From positions 1 through 12,913 of the forward strand of contig DPWB01000255.1 in NCBI GenBank assembly GCA_003527885.1: a DNA stretch of 12,913 bases, read 5' to 3'. The stretch's first letter is position 1, and each line of letters begins with the position of its first letter. Source of the stretch: Candidatus Competibacteraceae bacterium. GTDB lineage: Bacteria > Pseudomonadota > Gammaproteobacteria > Competibacterales > Competibacteraceae. The notes under the pieces were generated by a model. The model did not search any database. It was given only the letters and a program-made list of their open reading frames with translations, and had not been told where the DNA came from. The position numbers were made by a program, and so were the translations under genes. Shown here in pieces: positions 181 to 12,638 of the stretch.

Positions 181-250
181 GCCCTTCCGAGAACCGGACC
201 CGCGCCGCCGTCGCCCGCCGGCGGTGCTTTGGCAACTCAAGCGAACCCCG

Positions 251-1729
251 ATGTCGCCCGACGCGTTGACAAAAGAGTTCATCGGCCTCGACACCCGCTA
301 CCGGTTGGCCGACGGGCGGGTAACCCGCCGCCGCTATCTCGATTCGGCGGCCTCCACGCTGGCGCTGCGTCCGGCCCGAGAGGTGGCGGACCAACTGCTC
401 GAACACTACGCCAACACCCATAGCGAGCTGCATTTCTCCGCCCGCATCGTCCAGCGAGCATACGCCTGGGCGCACGCGCAGGCGCTCGGTTTTCTGCAAG
501 CCGACCCCGACCGCCACACCGCCATTTTCGCCGGCAGCGGTTGCACCGCCTCGCTGAATCGGCTGGCGCGGGCGCTGGCGGCGCGCCGGCCGGAGCGGGA
601 TGCGGTGGTGTCGACCTTGATGGAGCATCACGCCAATGACCTGCCGCACCGCAAACACGCCCGCCACATCGTCCACGCGCCGCTGAACGGCGAACCGCCG
701 GCGCTGGGCGCGGTCGATCTGACGGCGCTGGCCGCCGTGCTGGAACAGCGGCGCGGCCGGGTCAACTACGTGGCCGTTTCGGCGGCCAGCAACGTCACCG
801 GCATCATCAATCCGGTTCACGACATCGCGGCGCTGGCCCACGCTCACGGCGCCTGGGTCGTCGTGGATGCCTCCCAGTATCTCGCCCACGCCCCGTTGCC
901 CCTCAGCGACACGGGCGCGACCGACAGGGAACTGGATGCCGTGGTCTTTTCCGGCCACAAGCTCTACGCGCCCGGCTCGCCGGGGGTACTGGTGGCGCGG
1001 CGAAATCTGTTGGCCGATCAGGAGCCCGACGAACTGGGCGGCGGCATGGTGGACGACGTCCATTTAAAGGGGTATCTGGTGACCGACCGCTTCCCGGATC
1101 GCGAGGAAGCCGGCACCCCGAACATCGTCGGCGCGGTACAGTTGGGCGCGGCGCTGAACATCTTGCGACGGATCGGCATGGCGCGCGTTCACGCCGCCGA
1201 GCAGGCGCGGCTCCGGGAATTCGTGGCGGAGCTATCGGCCCAGCCGGGCGTGCGGCTTTACGGCGACACCGATCTCGACCGCACGCCGCGCCTCGGAACC
1301 GTGGCCTTCAACCTGGACGGCCTGGAGCACGGCCTGACCGCCACCGCATTGAACGATTACCACAACATCGCGGTCAGAAACGGTTGTTTCTGCGCGCATC
1401 CTTACGTTCGCGAACTGCTGAAACCGGAGCTGTGGGCCCTGGAGCTCGATCCCGACGCCGAGGGTGCGGCGGCGTTGCTCGCCCGCCGGCAAGGCATGGT
1501 GCGCGCCAGTTTCGGCCTGCATACCGATCGGGACGATCTGGCGGCGTTGCTATCCGGAATTCGGGATCTGCTGGCGCGGCCGGATCACTATAGGGCGCTG
1601 TATCGGCCGGACGCGGACGGCGGTTTCGCGCACCGGACCTTCGCGGCGCCGGCCGAACGTTATTTCGACGCCGAAACGGCGCTCGATCACGCGCTGTCTA
1701 GACTGAGTGTAACGCAAGGTATACTATAG
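251..1729 (+). CDS. Aminotransferase class V-fold PLP-dependent enzyme (cysteine desulfurase-like)
   Basis: A 492-residue fold-type I PLP enzyme if started at the ATG at 251; a GTG at 224 would add nine residues. Neither start has a convincing ribosome-binding site, and ATG was preferred because conserved sequence begins only near residue 30 (RYLDSAAST). Visible motifs, numbered from ATG 251: VVVDASQ with the cofactor-contacting Asp206, FSGHKLYAPGSPG with the Schiff-base Lys237, an EEAGTPN segment near 286-291, and RNGCFCAHPY with Cys381 at the place of the SufS catalytic cysteine. The family includes cysteine desulfurases, selenocysteine lyases and related enzymes. The protein is about 80-90 residues longer than SufS (about 406 aa) and ends in a non-conserved extension. 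No suf or isc genes are adjacent, so the substrate is not settled; a housekeeping desulfurase role is not implied. Confidence 0.85.
   Translation: MSPDALTKEFIGLDTRYRLADGRVTRRRYLDSAASTLALRPAREVADQLLEHYANTHSELHFSARIVQRAYAWAHAQALGFLQADPDRHTAIFAGSGCTASLNRLARALAARRPERDAVVSTLMEHHANDLPHRKHARHIVHAPLNGEPPALGAVDLTALAAVLEQRRGRVNYVAVSAASNVTGIINPVHDIAALAHAHGAWVVVDASQYLAHAPLPLSDTGATDRELDAVVFSGHKLYAPGSPGVLVARRNLLADQEPDELGGGMVDDVHLKGYLVTDRFPDREEAGTPNIVGAVQLGAALNILRRIGMARVHAAEQARLREFVAELSAQPGVRLYGDTDLDRTPRLGTVAFNLDGLEHGLTATALNDYHNIAVRNGCFCAHPYVRELLKPELWALELDPDAEGAAALLARRQGMVRASFGLHTDRDDLAALLSGIRDLLARPDHYRALYRPDADGGFAHRTFAAPAERYFDAETALDHALSRLSVTQGIL
1697..1725 (+). promoter_or_regulatory. Possible sigma-70 promoter of the xpaC-telA unit
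   Basis: A good -10 hexamer TATACT sits at 1720-1725, inside the last codons of the aminotransferase gene. A poor -35 (TCTAGA, 1697-1702) lies 17 nt upstream. Only the -10 element is convincing; the call is supported mainly by the need for a promoter ahead of the following genes. Confidence 0.25.
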
Positions 1730-1924: not shown

Positions 1925-2842
1925 ATGAACCGTTTTTTGGTGCTGGCCAGCGCGGTCCTGTTTTTGGTGGTTCCCCTGGTCGTGTTGCTGCAAAGGAGAA
2001 TTCGCACCGTGGCCGAACGCTACACGCAAGCTCCCCGCTCGGCCTCTCCGACCAGGGGGCTGCTGATGTTCTTGTTGCCCTTGCCGGTGCTGCTGGCCGC
2101 CGTCGGCGCTTTGATGGACGGCGATCTGACCGGCCTGTTCGACAACGGGATCTGCTACGGGCTGTTCCTCGGTGGGGCGCTGCTGCTGCGGCGCGGTTTG
2201 CGCTCGGAAGCGGACTATCTGCGCCGCCAGGTCGCCAGAGCGCCCTGGCCGTTTAAAACGCTCGGCGGCGGCCTGATCGCGCTGGCGACCGCGACCACGG
2301 CCTGGGCCAGCGTCGGACACTCGCCCTTGATGGCGCTCGTCTACGGCCTGCTCGCCCTGCTCGGCTGTTATCTGAGCTACGGTTTCGACCCGCACCGCGC
2401 CAAACGCTTCACCGACCGCGACGGCCTCGATTCCACCGACCGGGTGCTGGAGGCGCTGGCCCAGGCCGAAGCCTCCATCGCCGCCATCGAGCAGAGCACC
2501 CGCCACATCTACAACGCCGAACTCAACACCCGTCTGCGCCGCATCGCCGGCCAAGCCCGCCAGATCTTGACGATGCTGGAGGAAGACCCCCGCGATTTGC
2601 GGCGCGCTCGCAAGTTCCTGAACGTTTATCTCGACGGCGCCAAGCAAGTGACCGAAGGCTACGCGAAAACCCACGGCCGCGTCACCGCGCCGGAACTGGA
2701 GGACAATTTCCGCCGGGTTTTGGCGACCATCGAGGAGGTTTTCGCGGAGCAGCGACAAAAGCTGCTGGAAGCGGATGTCACCGATCTCGACGTGCAAATC
2801 GAAGTCTTGACGACCCAACTGAAACGGGAAGGCGTGGTCTGA
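1925..2842 (+). CDS. xpaC: XpaC family protein (5-bromo-4-chloroindolyl phosphate hydrolysis family)
   Basis: A 305-residue membrane protein. Hydrophobic segments are visible at about residues 4-22, 46-64, 71-90, 111-130 and 134-152. A charged, helical cytoplasmic-type domain follows (about 155-305) with heptad-like stretches (LEALAQAEASIAAIEQ, LRRIAGQARQIL). The helical domain and its position directly before telA match XpaC (PF10112), a family named after a Bacillus gene linked to X-phosphate hydrolysis but with no established enzyme activity. In Bacillus xpaC is paired with yaaN, a telA homologue, as here. The start lacks a clear ribosome-binding site. Inference: a membrane partner of TelA in toxic-anion or envelope stress. 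Assignment depends on the helical domain plus gene order. Confidence 0.75.
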   Translation: MNRFLVLASAVLFLVVPLVVLLQRRIRTVAERYTQAPRSASPTRGLLMFLLPLPVLLAAVGALMDGDLTGLFDNGICYGLFLGGALLLRRGLRSEADYLRRQVARAPWPFKTLGGGLIALATATTAWASVGHSPLMALVYGLLALLGCYLSYGFDPHRAKRFTDRDGLDSTDRVLEALAQAEASIAAIEQSTRHIYNAELNTRLRRIAGQARQILTMLEEDPRDLRRARKFLNVYLDGAKQVTEGYAKTHGRVTAPELEDNFRRVLATIEEVFAEQRQKLLEADVTDLDVQIEVLTTQLKREGVV

Positions 2843-2931
2843 TGGAAAAAAATTTTTCCGGCTCTCCACCCATCATCCGTTCATCCTGGCTTGAAAGACG
2901 GCTTCCACCCTTAAGGAATGGCACTGCATGA
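2842..2931 (+). CDS. Possible 29-aa ORF bridging xpaC and telA
   Basis: The ATG overlaps the xpaC stop (TGATG at 2840-2844) and its own TGA (2929-2931) overlaps the telA start (ATGA at 2928-2931), so the ORF spans exactly the otherwise empty xpaC-telA gap. A purine-rich GGGAAGG (2826-2832) lies upstream at a usable distance. The peptide starts MEKNFSGSPP, is basic toward its middle (WLERRLPPLR) and has no membrane segment. It may be a small protein or simply a reading frame that translationally couples xpaC to telA. No homology is recognised. Confidence 0.35.
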   Translation: MEKNFSGSPPIIRSSWLERRLPPLRNGTA

Positions 2932-4088
2932 GCACGACGCCGACCACCACGCCCTCTTCGCCGCCGGCGCTGCCGCAAGAGTTCGCCGCCGCGCTGCCGC
3001 AAGTCCAACAGGATTTGGCCGCCCGCGCGCCGATGGCCGCCCAGAACCAGCAACACATCGCCGCCTTGGTCAAGGAACTGGATCTGAGCGACAGCAATTC
3101 CATCCTTTTCTTCGGCGGCAAGGCGCAGGAGCAGTTGACCGCCATTTCCGACCAGATGCTGGAAGGGGTGCGCAATAAGGACAGCGGTCCGGCCGGTTCC
3201 GCGCTGAACGAAATGATCGCGGTGCTGCGCGGCTTCGATCTCGACGAACTCGACCCGAACAAAAAGCCCGGCTTCTTCGGTCGGTTGCTCGGCAAAACCA
3301 AACCGCTGGTCAAGATCGTCCAGCAATACGAGACGGTGCGCAATCAAATCGACACCATCAGCGACGCACTGGAGCGGCACAAGACTCAGCTACTGACTGA
3401 TGTCGCCATGCTGGATCGGCTTTATGACGCGAATCTTGACTACTTTCATACGCTGGAGCTGTACATTGCCGCTGGGGACGCCAAGCTGCAACAGGTCGAT
3501 ACTGAAGTGCTGCCGACCCTGGAAAAGGAGGTTGCCGCCGGCGAGGATATGGTGAAAGCGCAATCTTTGCGCGATTTGCGCGCCAGCCGTGATGATCTGG
3601 AACGGCGAGTTTACGATCTCAAACTGACCCGCCAAGTCACCATGCAAAGCTTGCCCAGCATCCGCCTGGTGCAGGAAAACGACAAGGGATTGATCAACAA
3701 GATCAATTCCACCCTGGTCAATACCGTGCCGCTGTGGCGGCAGCAACTGGCCCAAGCCATCACTATCTATCGCTCCGGCGAAGCGGCCAAGACCGTCAAG
3801 GCCGCCACCGATTTAACCAACGATCTGTTGAAATCCAACGCCGAAAATCTCCGCCAGGCCAACGCCCAAACCCGTGCCGAAATCGAACGCGGCGTGTTCG
3901 ACATCGAAACGGTGAAACAAGCCAACGAAACCCTCATTGCCACCATTGAAGACAGCCTGCGAATCGCCGATGAGGGCCGCCGCCATCGCAAAGAAGCGAC
4001 TGCACAACTCGAAACCCTGGAAGGCGAATTGCGCCAAGCGCTATCCGCTGCCCACGCCCGTACCCAACCGCCTGCCGGAGGTCGCTAG
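2928..4088 (+). CDS. telA: Toxic anion resistance protein, TelA family
   Basis: A 386-residue, almost entirely alpha-helical cytoplasmic protein of the TelA/YaaN/KlaA family (PF05816), associated with tellurite and other toxic-anion resistance; the biochemical mechanism is unknown. Seen: the family signature at about 153-187 (LLTDVAMLDRLYDANLDYF, then YIAAGDAKL), PSIRLVQENDKGL at 243-255, and TVPLWRQQLA at 266-275. The first 17 residues are a Thr/Pro/Ser-rich tail. Length is typical for the family. The ATG at 2928 has AAGGA (2912-2916) upstream at slightly long spacing. The next gene starts 2 nt after the stop, so the two are surely co-transcribed. Despite the name, TelA homologues occur widely without tellurite resistance. 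Confidence 0.93.
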   Translation: MSTTPTTTPSSPPALPQEFAAALPQVQQDLAARAPMAAQNQQHIAALVKELDLSDSNSILFFGGKAQEQLTAISDQMLEGVRNKDSGPAGSALNEMIAVLRGFDLDELDPNKKPGFFGRLLGKTKPLVKIVQQYETVRNQIDTISDALERHKTQLLTDVAMLDRLYDANLDYFHTLELYIAAGDAKLQQVDTEVLPTLEKEVAAGEDMVKAQSLRDLRASRDDLERRVYDLKLTRQVTMQSLPSIRLVQENDKGLINKINSTLVNTVPLWRQQLAQAITIYRSGEAAKTVKAATDLTNDLLKSNAENLRQANAQTRAEIERGVFDIETVKQANETLIATIEDSLRIADEGRRHRKEATAQLETLEGELRQALSAAHARTQPPAGGR

Positions 4089-4090
4089 CC

Positions 4091-5185
4091 ATGGCCTTGT
4101 GGGACAAGTTGCTTGGTGAGTTCGTCGATGTCATTCAGTGGACCGATCCGTCAAACGATACCTTGGTGTACCGTTTCGAGCGCTACGGCAACGAAATCAA
4201 ATACGGGGCCAAGCTGACGGTACGGGAAGGGCAGGTGGCGGTGTTCATCAATGAAGGCCAGCTCGCCGATACCTTTCAGCCCGGCATGTACGAGCTGAAA
4301 ACCAACAACATGCCGCTGTTGTCCACCTTGCAAGCTTGGCCCCACGGTTTCGAGAGTCCGTTCAAGGCCGAGGTGTATTTTTTCAGCACTCGTCGCTTTA
4401 CCGATCTCAAGTGGGGGACGCAGAATCCGGTGATGCTGCGCGATGCCGAATTCGGCCCAATCCGGCTGCGGGCGTTTGGTAGCTACGCGATCCGCATTAA
4501 AGACGCATCGCTTTTCTTGCGTGAGATCGTCGGTACTGACGGCAATTTCACGACGGACGAGATCACCAACCAATTGCGCAACATGGTGGTATCGCGCTTT
4601 ACCAACATCTTGGGGCAATCCAAGATCCCGGCGCTGGATTTGGCGGGCAATTACGACCAACTCGGTCAATTCTTGTTACAACGGATCGCTCCAGAATTCG
4701 GGGCAGTCGGGTTGGAATTGACCAATTTGTTGGTCGAGAACATCTCCTTGCCCAAAGAAGTCGAAGCGGCTTTGGACAAGCGCAGCAGCATGGGTATCGT
4801 CGGTAATCTCGATCAGTACACGCAGTTTCAGGCAGCGGAAGCCTTGCGCGATGCAGCCGCTAATCCCGGTGGTGGTTCCGAGGCTATGAGCATGGGGCTG
4901 GGGTTGGCGATGGCGCAGCGCTTAAACGACGCGCTGGCGCGGCCGACCCAATCGGCACCGGCCCCACCGCCTTTGCCGACCGTTAACCGCTATTTTGTCG
5001 CGGTGAATAACCAGCAAGCTGGGCCGTTTGGCATGGAGGATCTGCAACAGCAGGCACAAAGCGGCCAATTAACCCGCACCACCTTGGTGTGGACCCAGGG
5101 CATGGCGAGTTGGACACCAGCCGGCGAGGTCAGGGAATTGAACGCCCTGTTTGCCGCCATGCCGCCCCCTTTACCCAATGCCTGA
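4091..5185 (+). CDS. SPFH (band 7) domain protein with C-terminal GYF_2 domain
   Basis: A 364-residue protein of the virion-core-like/YdjI-type SPFH family. The SPFH domain covers about residues 25-230 (VREGQVAVFINEGQLADTF; the NPVMLRDAEFGPIRLRAFG segment; LLVENISLP). An Ala/Gly-rich stretch (245-275) and a Pro-rich linker (285-297) lead to a GYF_2 domain at about 300-354 (YFVAVNNQQAGPF, LVWTQGMASW). Many relatives carry a zinc ribbon at the C-terminus; none is seen here. SPFH proteins assemble on membranes and organise microdomains. In B. subtilis YdjI helps place PspA at the membrane, so a scaffold role in membrane stress is likely. Translation starts at the ATG 4091 with GGAGG (4077-4081) nine bases upstream. 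There is no transmembrane segment, so membrane contact would be peripheral. Confidence 0.88.
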   Translation: MALWDKLLGEFVDVIQWTDPSNDTLVYRFERYGNEIKYGAKLTVREGQVAVFINEGQLADTFQPGMYELKTNNMPLLSTLQAWPHGFESPFKAEVYFFSTRRFTDLKWGTQNPVMLRDAEFGPIRLRAFGSYAIRIKDASLFLREIVGTDGNFTTDEITNQLRNMVVSRFTNILGQSKIPALDLAGNYDQLGQFLLQRIAPEFGAVGLELTNLLVENISLPKEVEAALDKRSSMGIVGNLDQYTQFQAAEALRDAAANPGGGSEAMSMGLGLAMAQRLNDALARPTQSAPAPPPLPTVNRYFVAVNNQQAGPFGMEDLQQQAQSGQLTRTTLVWTQGMASWTPAGEVRELNALFAAMPPPLPNA

Positions 5186-5214
5186 AAAGCCACGATCAGG
5201 CAGGCATTGGTTTT
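5175..5214 (+). terminator. Intrinsic terminator overlapping the SPFH stop codon
   Basis: A perfect 10-bp inverted repeat, CCAATGCCTG (5175-5184) and CAGGCATTGG (5201-5210), with a 16-nt loop is followed directly by TTTT (5211-5214). The left arm contains the last codons and part of the TGA stop of the SPFH gene. It probably ends the xpaC-telA-SPFH transcript, so the next gene should have its own promoter or depend on read-through. Confidence 0.65.
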
Positions 5215-5261
5215 CTGAGCGGCTCGACGACGTTTCATCGAGCAGAAACTCTGGCTTGAAA

Positions 5262-5298
5262 CCTCCCCCATCAGGGGGATAAGTGTGCGTGGGGGAGG
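5262..5298 (+). promoter_or_regulatory. Structured 5' leader of the kbp-like gene: alternative hairpins
   Basis: CCCCC (5265-5269) can pair with GGGGG at 5274-5278 (4-nt loop ATCA). Alternatively CCTCCCCC (5262-5269) can pair with GGGGGAGG at 5291-5298. The two pairings are mutually exclusive. The second would hide an SD-like GGAGGAG (5294-5300) that precedes a 10-codon ORF (ATG 5312 to TGA 5342-5344). This looks like a regulatory leader but no known riboswitch class is recognised. Confidence 0.35.
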
Positions 5299-5316
5299 AG
5301 TGACCTCTGCCATGCT

Positions 5317-5347
5317 GTTTCGCCCGGTCAAGGGCGTGGATTGAAAC
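5317..5347 (+). repeat. Solitary CRISPR-repeat-like sequence (type I-C-like)
   Basis: This 31-nt element begins GTTTCGCCC, has a short CGCCC/GGGCG inverted repeat, and ends in GGGCGTGGATTGAAAC. That 3' end is the hallmark of type I-C CRISPR repeats. There is no second good copy at spacer distance and no cas gene in the window, so it is an orphan repeat or a look-alike. It lies in the 5' leader, 11 nt before the Shine-Dalgarno sequence of the kbp-like gene. Confidence 0.55.
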
Positions 5348-5369
5348 CGAGAAATCACAGGAGATTGCA

Positions 5370-5810
5370 ATGGGACTTTTCGACTTTATCGTCAACCAGG
5401 GTAAAAAGTTGTTCGGCGCGGACGAGCAGGACCCAGCCGCGAAAATCAAGGCGGAAATTGAAGCGGCCAATCCCGGTGTCAAGAATCTGGATGTGAAATT
5501 CAAAGACGGCCAGGTTCAGCTTTCTGGTGATGCCATCACTCCGGAAGCCATGGAAAAAGCGGTCTTGATGGCGGGTAATGTTCAAGGGGTTCAGAATGTA
5601 TCCGCCGATGGGATAAAGGCCCCGCCTCAGACGGGTAAGGTCGAGTATTACACCATCAAGTCGGGTGACACGCTGTCCTCGATTGCCAAGCATTTCCTGG
5701 GCAATGCCTCGGCGTATAACCAAATTTTTGAAGCCAATCGCGAAGTGATCCAGGACCCCGACAAGATTTATGTCGGTCAGAAGATTCGGATTCCTCTCAG
5801 CGGAAGCTGA
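5370..5810 (+). CDS. kbp: BON-LysM protein, Kbp/YgaU-like potassium-binding protein
   Basis: A 146-residue soluble protein that can be followed end to end against E. coli Kbp (YgaU, 149 aa). It has an N-terminal MGLFDFIVNQGKKL, a BON domain at about 22-83 (VKFKDGQVQLSG, then GVQNVSADGIK) and a LysM domain at about 92-142 (YYTIKSGDTLSSIAKHFLG, then DKIYVGQKIRIP). E. coli Kbp binds K+ in the cytoplasm and has been linked to the envelope stress response and peptidoglycan cross-linking. No signal peptide is present, as in Kbp. The ATG at 5370 has a good AGGAG (5359-5363) six bases upstream. It is separated from the SPFH gene by a terminator and a structured leader, and followed by DUF533 after 129 nt. 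Confidence 0.88.
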   Translation: MGLFDFIVNQGKKLFGADEQDPAAKIKAEIEAANPGVKNLDVKFKDGQVQLSGDAITPEAMEKAVLMAGNVQGVQNVSADGIKAPPQTGKVEYYTIKSGDTLSSIAKHFLGNASAYNQIFEANREVIQDPDKIYVGQKIRIPLSGS

Positions 5811-5831
5811 GTTTTCACGGGAGCGGTTTCT

Positions 5832-5856
5832 GCGGGGTGACAGGTTGTCACTCCGC
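5832..5856 (+). other. Stable hairpin after the kbp-like gene
   Basis: An 11-bp stem (5832-5842 with 5846-5856, one G-T pair) with loop GGT starts 21 nt after the kbp stop. No T-run follows, so it may protect the transcript end or act as a weak or factor-dependent terminator rather than a classical one. Confidence 0.45.
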
Positions 5857-5889
5857 ACTGTTCACGCGATGAACGTTTTGCCGGGTGAC

Positions 5890-5906
5890 CGCTAATACGG
5901 TTAGCG
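5890..5906 (+). promoter_or_regulatory. Dyad upstream of the DUF533 gene, possible operator
   Basis: A perfect 6-bp inverted repeat CGCTAA / TTAGCG with a 5-nt spacer (TACGG) lies 33 nt before the DUF533 start codon. It has the size and place of a regulator-binding site, but no regulator can be named and a chance palindrome is possible. Confidence 0.25.
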
Positions 5907-5939
5907 TCATCGACCCACCAACTGAATGAGGGTAATGGA

Positions 5940-6809
5940 ATGGATGCATTAAAGATTTTAGGTAGTTTGCTGGGAAATAACGCCATGTCCTCCGGGATCG
6001 GCGGACAAGTTTTCGGGCAAGTACTCAATGGGTTGACGAGGGGCGGCGCCCAGCAGCCGGGCGGTGGCGGCTTAGGTGGTCTGCTCGGTGGTCTGCTCGG
6101 TGGCGGCCCACAGCAACAGCCCCCTGGCGGTGGTGGCTTAGGTGATCTTCTCGGCGGCCTGCTCGGTGGCCAACGCCCGCCACCGCCAGGTGCCGGTGGC
6201 GGTTTGGGATCGGTGCTGGGCAGTCTGCTCGGTGGTGGCCAATCGGGTGGGCTAGGCGGTTTGGGGTCGGTGTTGGGGCATCTCGCCGGTGGCGGTCGAT
6301 CCCAAGGCGGTGGTATTCCTTGGTCAGTGCTCGCTGGTTTGGCGATGAGCGGGTTTAGCATGTTGGGTAAAGGTAGCGCGGGTCAATCTTCTGCGTTGAC
6401 CGACGCTTCAATCCTGCCGCCCGGGGCGGAAGCGGCGCCCGCTGAAGCGGTGGCCCACTTAAACCAACAGGCCATCACCCTCATCAAAGCGATGCTGAAC
6501 GCCGCCAAGGCGGATGGCCAAATCGATGCGCAAGAGCAACAGAACATCGTTAGCAAACTGGCTGATCTTGGTCCACAGGAGGCAGCGTTTGTCAAAGATG
6601 AAATCGCTCGGCCGCTGAATATGGATTTTCTGGAGCAGGTCCAGCAGGGGATGGCCAGCAACGTCTATATGATGTCGCTGATGGCGATCAATCTCGACAC
6701 CAACGCCGAAGTTCAATACATGCAGCGGTTGGCACAGGCCCTTGGCCTGGACCCGCAAACGGTCAATGGCTTACATCAACAGCTAGGAATCACCCCGCTT
6801 TATTCGTAA
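5940..6809 (+). CDS. DUF533 / TerB-like protein with Gly-rich repeat region (YebE-related)
   Basis: A 289-residue protein in three parts. Residues 1-34 form an amphipathic N-terminus. Residues 35-125 are an extremely Gly/Leu-rich low-complexity region with about four copies of a GGGLGxLLGxLLGGG-type unit separated by Gln/Pro-rich spacers. A hydrophobic stretch (126-142) follows. Residues about 165-286 form a DUF533 domain (PF04391) of the TerB-like superfamily, seen as LIKAMLNAAKADGQIDAQE, VYMMSLMAINLDT and YMQRLAQALGLD. E. coli YebE is the best known member and belongs to the Cpx envelope-stress regulon; TerB domains bind metal through acidic residues. The start ATG at 5940 has GAGGG (5928-5932) seven bases upstream. 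The Gly-rich region is longer than in YebE (219 aa) and is probably prone to repeat-length change. Function is unknown. Confidence 0.85.
   Translation: MDALKILGSLLGNNAMSSGIGGQVFGQVLNGLTRGGAQQPGGGGLGGLLGGLLGGGPQQQPPGGGGLGDLLGGLLGGQRPPPPGAGGGLGSVLGSLLGGGQSGGLGGLGSVLGHLAGGGRSQGGGIPWSVLAGLAMSGFSMLGKGSAGQSSALTDASILPPGAEAAPAEAVAHLNQQAITLIKAMLNAAKADGQIDAQEQQNIVSKLADLGPQEAAFVKDEIARPLNMDFLEQVQQGMASNVYMMSLMAINLDTNAEVQYMQRLAQALGLDPQTVNGLHQQLGITPLYS
6076..6300 (+). repeat. GGT/GGC-rich coding repeats in the DUF533 gene
   Basis: Imperfect repeats encode the Gly/Leu-rich region. The clearest is a perfect tandem pair of the 12-mer GGTCTGCTCGGT (6078-6089 and 6090-6101). Related units recur near 6140-6170, 6205-6237 and 6250-6290. 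Confidence 0.7.
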
Positions 6810-12020: not shown

Positions 12021-12638
12021 TTAAGCGGCTTCGGCAGCCTTTTTCTGGCGGCGCTTGGCGCCCAGGCCGAGCAGGCCCATACCGAGCAGCGCCAGGGTGG
12101 TCGGTTCGGGGACTGGAGTAGTAGAAATTTGCCCCGAGTATAAATTAGTGGCATAAGTTACATTCGAAACAGTACCGCTTACCTCAAAAGCGTACTGCCC
12201 CGCCGTGAGGGTGCCAAATGGAATATTGCTGTTGAAATTTGGAGATGTGTTACCTGGTGTTACAAGGGAACCAACTGAAACACCAGTGCAGAGCGACCCA
12301 ATCGTACCACAACTGGAAGAATTAACCGTATAGAGATTAAGTGAAAAGTTTGAAATATTATCCGTGGGTATGAAATTAACGTTGAGGCCGGCTGCAGCGG
12401 TAGGGTCAAGATAGAATACCCACCAATCGCTCAAAGGTCCTAAAGGGACAACAGGATTGTTGAAACCTGCAGAATTCAATGAAGGAAGAGGGCTGGTAGC
12501 GTCTAATGAGCCAAGGAAGGTATAGTCTCCTGCGAAGTCAATAGATGTCGCCGAAGCGGTATTTGCAAAACCGCAGATGCCAAGCCCTAATGCAAGAGTT
12601 ACAGCGGCCAAACCAGAACGCTTTACTTTCGTATTCAT
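12021..12638 (-). CDS. PEP-CTERM sorting domain-containing exported protein
   Basis: A 205-residue secreted protein. It has an N-terminal signal peptide (Lys/Arg at 4-7, hydrophobic core 9-24, likely cleavage after NTASA at residue 30). The mature domain is rich in Asn, Ser, Thr and Gly with two cysteines (110, 117). It ends in a PEP-CTERM tripartite signal: VPEP at 176-179, a hydrophobic helix (181-193) and a basic cluster KRRQKK (195-200). Such proteins are recognised by an exosortase (EpsH/XrtA type) that cleaves near the PEP motif and delivers them to the surface, typically in bacteria making exopolysaccharide or flocs. The mature domain is not recognised. The gene is clearly lower in GC than the rest of the window. 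A sigma-54-type promoter precedes it and a terminator follows. No exosortase gene is in the window. Confidence 0.93.
   Translation of the reverse strand: MNTKVKRSGLAAVTLALGLGICGFANTASATSIDFAGDYTFLGSLDATSPLPSLNSAGFNNPVVPLGPLSDWWVFYLDPTAAAGLNVNFIPTDNISNFSLNLYTVNSSSCGTIGSLCTGVSVGSLVTPGNTSPNFNSNIPFGTLTAGQYAFEVSGTVSNVTYATNLYSGQISTTPVPEPTTLALLGMGLLGLGAKRRQKKAAEAA

Follow-up and report, generated by a model that had tools for sequence, protein, structure and literature searches.

Locus and gene families

We describe a cluster of five consecutive genes in a 12,913-nucleotide stretch of DNA (contig DPWB01000255.1 of assembly GCA_003527885.1, Candidatus Competibacteraceae bacterium), hereafter the window. 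The open reading frames (ORFs), confirmed on the plus strand at exactly 1925-6809, encode an XpaC-like protein, TelA, an SPFH protein with a GYF_2 domain, a Kbp (YgaU)-like protein, and a DUF533 protein. An earlier note, made from the sequence alone, had read all five as one functional system acting in membrane stress. Comparison with other genomes retains the first three as a conserved unit and adds a partner that the note had missed, a zinc-ribbon membrane protein, whereas Kbp and DUF533 are unsupported as members. The features are as follows, each score being followed by its cut-off:

1925..2842, plus strand: XpaC-like gene, core (PF10112, Pfam, 117.7 bits against 29.8)
2928..4088, plus strand: TelA gene, core (PF05816, Pfam, 393.1 bits against 30)
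4091..5185, plus strand: SPFH gene (Band_7_1, YdjI type) with a C-terminal GYF_2 domain, core (PF13421, 339 bits against 24)
4964..4978, plus strand: PPPLP motif in the linker before GYF_2 (SPFH residues 292-296, from the translation)
4991..5140, plus strand: GYF_2 domain (SPFH residues 301-350; PF14237, 78.5 bits against 25.8)
5162..5176, plus strand: C-terminal PPPLP motif (SPFH residues 358-362, from the translation)
5370..5810, plus strand: Kbp/YgaU-like BON-LysM gene, accessory (LysM 48.7 bits against 20.9, BON 42 against 27)
5940..6809, plus strand: DUF533 (YebE/TerB-like) gene, accessory (PF04391, 115.8 bits against 29.6)

Each ORF belongs to the family first proposed for it, by Pfam and, in the case of Kbp, also by NF008399 and a match to the solved structure 7pvc. 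XpaC and TelA are separated by 85 nucleotides, TelA and SPFH by 2, SPFH and Kbp by 184, and Kbp and DUF533 by 129.

XpaC is hydrophobic in its N-terminal half, with segments at residues 4-22, 46-64, and 130-148, and its C-terminal part is modeled by AlphaFold2 as a helical bundle (mean predicted local distance difference test score, pLDDT, 87); these features make it a putative membrane anchor. TelA covers positions 2-331 of the 332 in its Pfam profile and has no membrane helix; it is predicted to be all-helical, with a long hairpin formed by residues 126-204 and 208-294, each helix comprising about 80 residues (mean pLDDT 72). The SPFH protein, too, lacks a membrane helix of its own, none of its segments being hydrophobic enough to pass the threshold applied.

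Conservation of XpaC, TelA, and SPFH

The families were followed in three samples: a class sample of 185 Gammaproteobacteria genomes from 177 genera, searched for four Pfam families and one NCBIfam family; a named-locus sample of 80 loci fetched via TelA, 76 of which remain once the four closest family records are set aside (one of the 76, L113, also bears the name Competibacteraceae); and a family sample of 29 Competibacteraceae TelA loci besides that of the window, with counts restricted to loci with room. In the named loci, a gene was counted as near TelA when it lay within 400 nucleotides on the same strand.

In the class sample, XpaC exceeds its cut-off at 14 places in 13 genomes, and all 14 are beside TelA; two weak places below the cut-off are located elsewhere. 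The YdjI-type SPFH, defined as the 10 of 51 listed Band_7_1 places with an expectation value (E) of 3e-98 or better, is found in 9 genomes and is also invariably beside TelA (10/10). The remaining 41 Band_7_1 places (E 1.6e-5 or worse) resemble other SPFH families and were left uncounted; eight genomes exceed the curated Band_7_1 cut-off solely through such weak places, none of which adjoins TelA. PF13421 also matches B. subtilis among the control genomes. Because every XpaC match over the cut-off and every strong SPFH lies beside TelA, XpaC-TelA-SPFH is a genuine unit. A TelA/XpaC co-occurrence of 11/11 was discarded as circular, the genomes having been chosen for XpaC beside TelA.

The named loci outside the family define a core of XpaC-TelA, very often joined by SPFH: XpaC is near TelA in 64 of 69 loci with room and SPFH in 37 of 67, compared with none or one for the other genes of the window. 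Among Competibacteraceae loci with room, XpaC lies upstream of TelA in 21 of 28 and SPFH beside it in 28 of 28. The trio occurs in Gammaproteobacteria, in records labeled Alphaproteobacteria, and in metagenome-assembled genomes labeled Campylobacterota. At nine loci (L131:8112-8990 and eight others), a putative nucleotide-cyclase-FHA fusion gene, as read from the L131 sequence, is found just upstream of XpaC.

A zinc-ribbon membrane protein follows SPFH

When the ORFs surrounding TelA were clustered across 82 loci (76 named and six from the class sample), a further gene emerged just 3' of SPFH, as frequent as SPFH itself (36 and 34 loci). Its product, which we call ZnR-TM, has about 400 residues, eight cysteines in two zinc-ribbon pairs that are invariant across 15 aligned sequences, and a single C-terminal hydrophobic segment in the one sequence tested. 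Pfam finds just scattered, mostly sub-threshold zinc-ribbon domains in five sequences, and where relatives have been annotated, labels like "primosomal protein N' (replication factor Y)" and "RPC12/RpoP" are used.

A profile built for this protein (A2) was applied to those named loci outside the family in which SPFH is present and followed by 600 or more nucleotides. ZnR-TM follows SPFH in all 37, directly adjoining it in 33, overlapping it through the start chosen in two, and displaced by about 1 kilobase (kb) in two; the same profile finds it in none of 33 named loci without SPFH, some of which lack full downstream room. All six strong matches outside the family in the class sample are beside SPFH, and in the seventh SPFH genome (G131) the contig ends at the position of ZnR-TM. 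In Paracoccus ferrooxidans, the deposited annotation lists a toxic anion resistance protein, DUF2927, SPFH, and a zinc ribbon protein, the last of which is ZnR-TM by profile (6e-144); the DUF2927 gene (L192:7089-8117) separates TelA from SPFH.

Within Competibacteraceae, ZnR-TM usually lies apart from TelA and, in the ten cases viewed, among varied genes. It is found about 0.7 kb after SPFH in G196, G197, and G199, 2 kb after SPFH in G208, directly after DUF533 in G185, and about 20 kb away in G220. Its presence nevertheless tracks that of TelA: 26 of 30 TelA genomes encode it, compared with one of nine others (p 6e-5; G214, with one weak TelA match, counted as lacking TelA), and among genomes at least 90% complete the figures are 19/19 with TelA and 1/6 without. 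The four TelA genomes with no match, the window's among them, are 58-82% complete. ZnR-TM is an overlooked fourth partner of XpaC-TelA-SPFH, co-retained even though mostly relocated in this family.

One system or two

A rival reading takes XpaC-TelA and SPFH-ZnR-TM as separate systems, independent of each other, that merely happen to occupy one operon in certain Proteobacteria. TelA loci without XpaC or without SPFH demonstrate that the parts of the unit can separate. No SPFH follows TelA in 30 of the 67 named loci with room; XpaC is absent from 6 of 21 TelA places over the cut-off in the class sample (21 places in 18 genomes, of which 14 have XpaC adjoining and one is a contig-end fragment), from seven of the 28 family loci (L085, L091, L094, L097, L098, L099, and L100), and from two Paracoccus stretches, which gave no XpaC match. 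Three of the family loci without an XpaC match (L085, L099, and L100) retain the zinc-ribbon gene 0.7 kb after SPFH. A Cytobacillus stretch has XpaC-TelA in the order and strand of the window and no SPFH, and Vibrio and Tsukamurella plasmid records have the SPFH-ZnR pair with no TelA match (L194:6001-8154 and L195:4989-7408). In Bacillus, the two halves occupy separate operons, xpaC-yaaN and pspA-ydjGHI, both in the SigW regulon (PMC3498285); xpaC-yaaN is an instance of the XpaC-TelA pairing that the earlier note places in Bacillus.

Two independent systems are favored by the TelA loci without SPFH, the Cytobacillus stretch, the SPFH-ZnR pairs without a TelA match, and the separate Bacillus operons. 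The loci at which XpaC, SPFH, or TelA is missing weigh against a four-part unit, as do three other points: fold searches with TelA and XpaC gave no informative relative, ZnR-TM is undetected in the window's own 73% complete genome, outside the window as well as in it, and binding of GYF_2 to PPPLP is assumed from a general property of GYF domains. Two independent systems would not, on the other hand, readily account for the placement of every strong gammaproteobacterial SPFH beside TelA or for ZnR-TM accompanying TelA when unlinked from it, as in all 19 of the most complete Competibacteraceae TelA genomes. We consider two independent systems rather unlikely and proceed with XpaC-TelA-SPFH plus ZnR-TM as one unit.

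The SPFH tail

GYF domains bind proline motifs. In the window SPFH, GYF_2 occupies the position at which a YdjI-like C-terminal zinc finger would be expected and which holds none here, and it is flanked on both sides by PPPLP. With the tail motif defined as PPP followed by any of nine residues and a final P, 27 of 28 SPFH proteins from the family and 31 of 38 from elsewhere carry the linker copy, and 26 of 28 and 34 of 38, respectively, carry the C-terminal copy. Such motifs are rare in TelA (3/24 in the family, 1/72 in others) and absent from XpaC (0/21 and 0/69), Kbp (0/11 and 0/3), and the zinc-ribbon protein (0/36). PPP-GYF_2-PPP tails, with variants, recur in SPFH proteins of Vibrio, Tsukamurella, Bacteroides, and Paracoccus. 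Among the five solved-structure matches listed for GYF_2, a domain from a gliding protein of Myxococcus ranks first (7z3c, 9.6e-7); E is 0.25 or worse for the remaining four. Given that GYF domains bind proline motifs and that the PPPLP-GYF_2-PPPLP tail is conserved, binding between SPFH subunits is the simplest reading; the tail's sequence suggests that SPFH may crosslink itself.

Kbp and DUF533

The window BON-LysM protein exceeds the curated cut-off for the NF008399 equivalog (162.4 against 134) and matches E. coli Kbp (7pvc) at 5.9e-31. The description of its neighbor as a YebE/TerB-like DUF533 protein stands as to DUF533 and not as to TerB (PF05099), which at 24.1 bits falls just below the cut-off of 24.4. 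The DUF533 N-terminus (window 5940-6300) is repetitive, rich in Gly and Leu, and variable in length, whole proteins ranging from 242 to 326 residues among relatives.

Part of the earlier note's test of a shared function was conservation of the five-gene order beyond close relatives, and beyond them this order is not conserved. In the class sample, Kbp has 20 matches over the cut-off and one split match, and DUF533 is represented by 23 matches, spread over 16 genomes, at E under 1e-25 (the set also used for the DUF533 Fisher tests below); only two of each are beside TelA, all in the genome of the window. Outside the family, 67 of the named loci have room; near TelA in these, Kbp never appears and DUF533 appears once, and each of the five genes further downstream in the window scores 0/67. 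Within the family, Kbp is beside TelA in 9 of 21 loci with room and DUF533 in 8 of 20. These values can be gauged against a gene upstream of XpaC:

224..1729, plus strand: class V aminotransferase gene (Pfam), outside the unit, serving as a synteny yardstick

Of the family loci with room, 14 of 24 have the aminotransferase upstream of TelA, compared with none of 69 outside the family; dropping the room rule raises the family counts to 12 for Kbp and 16 for the aminotransferase, out of 29 loci. The downstream reductase is near TelA in 2 of 17 family loci with room. Since Kbp and DUF533 are no better kept beside TelA than an unrelated aminotransferase, they are unsupported as members of one conserved system.

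The alternative, in which all five genes constitute one system to which Kbp adds K+ sensing and DUF533 a TerB-like domain, the link having been lost or rearranged elsewhere, draws on several observations from the family. All five genes occur in window order in 9 of the 29 other TelA loci, two of them (L074 and L075) with DUF533 pieces of 64 and 75 residues alone, so that the order is no accident of assembly. Kbp, found in 14 of 39 family genomes (E 1e-15 or better; none in the other 25), is part of the TelA cluster in 13, G201 being the exception. In 9 of these 13, the contig continues after Kbp with a PF04391 match; it ends there in G187, G198, and G200, and G192 has a short piece alone. L095 (G185), drawn as the deepest branch of the family, reads XpaC-TelA-SPFH-Kbp-DUF533-ZnR-TM. 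Outside the family, Kbp lies on the same strand 5.5-6 kb downstream of the TelA start in three named loci (L138, L145, and L152), two of them Thiothrix and all with SPFH and the zinc-ribbon gene; in L152, Kbp is followed by a 156-residue ORF (15965-16435) with a Gly-rich stretch. DUF533 is beside TelA in L163 (2476-3117, same strand) and L128 (11169-11975, opposite strand), and no SPFH was found at either.

Genome-wide association points in the same direction. In the class sample outside the family, Kbp is present somewhere in 7 of 16 TelA genomes compared with 11 of 167 others (p 1.8e-4), DUF533 in 6 of 16 compared with 9 of 167 (p 5e-4), and the two co-occur in 8 of 18 Kbp genomes (p 7e-6); the tests against TelA cover all 16 TelA genomes over the cut-off and are uncorrected for relatedness. 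A control family, PF16268, whose matches outside the window's genome are weak and mostly partial, is associated neither with TelA (4/16, p 0.28) nor with DUF533 (p 0.95) but shows mild enrichment with Kbp (p 0.017); tests of this kind may therefore be confounded by relatedness and genome size. The proposed link of Kbp and DUF533 to TelA survives in this weaker, genome-wide form and not as adjacency outside the family.

Against membership stand the outside genomes, in which none of 18 with Kbp and none of 15 with strong DUF533 has the gene adjoining TelA, and only seven and six, respectively, have TelA at all; the TelA tree of 25 family members, on which the Kbp-DUF533 cassette requires five gains or losses (four to five in bootstraps), two of them forced by well-supported branches; and the comparison with the aminotransferase. 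A single five-gene system is in our judgment unlikely. Kbp-DUF533 is a lineage-specific cassette kept beside TelA mainly by Competibacteraceae, a family of wastewater bacteria, and in only part of that family; it stands outside the XpaC-TelA-SPFH-ZnR-TM unit. It probably serves envelope stress too. As the earlier note states, ygaU and yebE are both linked to Cpx in E. coli, where they appear in the CpxR target list (PMC7657598). The window proteins belong to the same families as the products of these genes, which the earlier note places apart in E. coli and which here are adjacent downstream of TelA-SPFH.

Genomic context

The window comes from a metagenome-assembled genome of 3.1 Mb in 417 contigs, 73% complete and 4.3% contaminated, whose nearest named relatives are Competibacteraceae, including Candidatus Contendobacter. 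Downstream of DUF533 and convergent with it are genes for a ferredoxin-NADP reductase-like protein, folK, a PQQ-propeller protein, DUF4921, a 109-residue ORF, and a PEP-CTERM protein:

12021-12638 of the window, minus strand: PEP-CTERM protein gene

Promoter and terminator scans of the window returned the level of shuffled sequence (5 against 4.5 promoters and 15 against 15.0 terminators). A second cluster, TelA (fragment)-SPFH-Kbp-DUF533, is present on contig C329 (L043) of the same genome, with DNA identity over the best stretches of 79% to the window and 84% to another member of the genus; DUF4921 likewise occurs twice in the assembly. These identities suggest a mixed bin.

Relation to known systems

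The closest parallel to the SPFH half is pspA-ydjGHI of B. subtilis, in which, as here, a membrane-less SPFH protein is encoded together with a double-zinc-ribbon membrane protein (PMC8581546, PMC11237479). YdjI reaches the membrane only with the membrane proteins YdjG and YdjH, is needed for PspA localization, and carries a C-terminal zinc finger (PMC8581546). In another description, YdjG combines a pair of zinc ribbons with an additional domain and a membrane segment, and its SPFH partner is a band-7 protein with a C-terminal zinc ribbon (PMC11237479). The window differs in having XpaC-TelA in the upstream place; a Pfam scan of ten window proteins yielded no PspA (the rest of the genome was not searched), and no YdjH gene was found in the window. 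The SPFH tail consists of GYF_2 and PPPLP instead of a zinc ribbon, and ZnR-TM is likened to YdjG by description. The other half is matched by Bacillus xpaC-yaaN and Listeria lmo1966-lmo1967, XpaC-TelA pairs as here (PMC3498285, PMC12791056), in which there is no SPFH or zinc-ribbon gene. By analogy, our best reading is that the proteobacterial unit joins parts that are split in Bacillus, xpaC-yaaN and the SPFH-zinc-ribbon portion of pspA-ydjGHI, with no pspA in the window.

Ter/TelA systems, which combine TerB, TerC, TerD, and TerF with TelA, share with the window TelA, which is described as forming sub-membrane structures (PMC7824862), and a DUF533 protein of weak TerB similarity; TerC, TerD, and TerF had no match among the ten window proteins scanned. 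The family names invite a further explanation, classical detoxification of toxic anions such as tellurite, and a Listeria telA (lmo1967) mutant does become 2-fold more sensitive to tellurite, whereas the same mutant becomes 4-fold more sensitive to nisin, a larger effect (PMC12791056). That work deals with the phage-shock-protein (PSP) response to the bacteriocin GarKS, which also raises expression of lmo1966-1967 modestly (log2 change about 0.6). Efflux and methyltransferase families gave no match in the scanned window proteins, whose sole oxidoreductases are the ferredoxin-NADP reductase-like and PQQ-propeller proteins on the other strand, and the regular partners of TelA are of the membrane-scaffold type. 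Classical tellurite detoxification is, in our view, highly improbable.

The four-gene unit is not described in the literature searched, which comprised titles and abstract starts among the entries listed and mostly excluded subscription papers, and in that literature no paper was found that treats TelA, XpaC, and SPFH together. A 2012 treatment of Ter systems by Anantharaman et al. may cover parts of the unit. The available text of PMC11237479, PMC10936438, and PMC9239133 has no mention of TelA, and that of PMC2636767 has none of YdjI or tellur-.

A model for the unit and its implications

The family assignments, linkage, co-retention, and SPFH tail are observed; that the conserved unit, XpaC-TelA-SPFH/GYF_2 with ZnR-TM, is a submembrane scaffold for envelope stress is a reading that we find about evenly balanced between right and wrong. 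The physical interactions, the part that the unit plays in stress in this organism, and the direction in which it acts are our inference. We posit that XpaC, embedded in the membrane, would hold the helical TelA under the inner membrane. The membrane-less SPFH protein would oligomerize in the same location, and GYF_2 could bind the PPPLP motifs of neighboring subunits, building a larger sheet or cage, which ZnR-TM may tether to the membrane in the manner of YdjG/YdjH with YdjI in Bacillus. Upon envelope stress, caused by membrane-active peptides or oxyanions, the assembly would stabilize or reorganize the membrane. The Listeria observations, induction by GarKS and a nisin effect larger than that of tellurite, fit this model; the dependence of YdjI on YdjG and YdjH and the membership of both Bacillus operons in the SigW regulon also count in its favor.

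A bolder version, which we offer tentatively as possible though doubtful, is that many Proteobacteria possess a PspA-independent, four-part machine for envelope protection, in which the TelA hairpin would act as the effector in place of PspA, XpaC as the anchor, SPFH as a self-crosslinking scaffold, and the zinc-ribbon protein as the tether. If so, the annotation "tellurite resistance" masks a membrane-remodeling or sealing function of TelA. The names under which TelA and XpaC are known, toxic-anion resistance and indolyl-phosphate hydrolysis, explain little; an SPFH scaffold and zinc-ribbon partners give these families a testable mechanism and separate the core from the add-ons Kbp and DUF533, while the double PPPLP around GYF_2 provides a point-mutation handle on how a bacterial SPFH scaffold might assemble.

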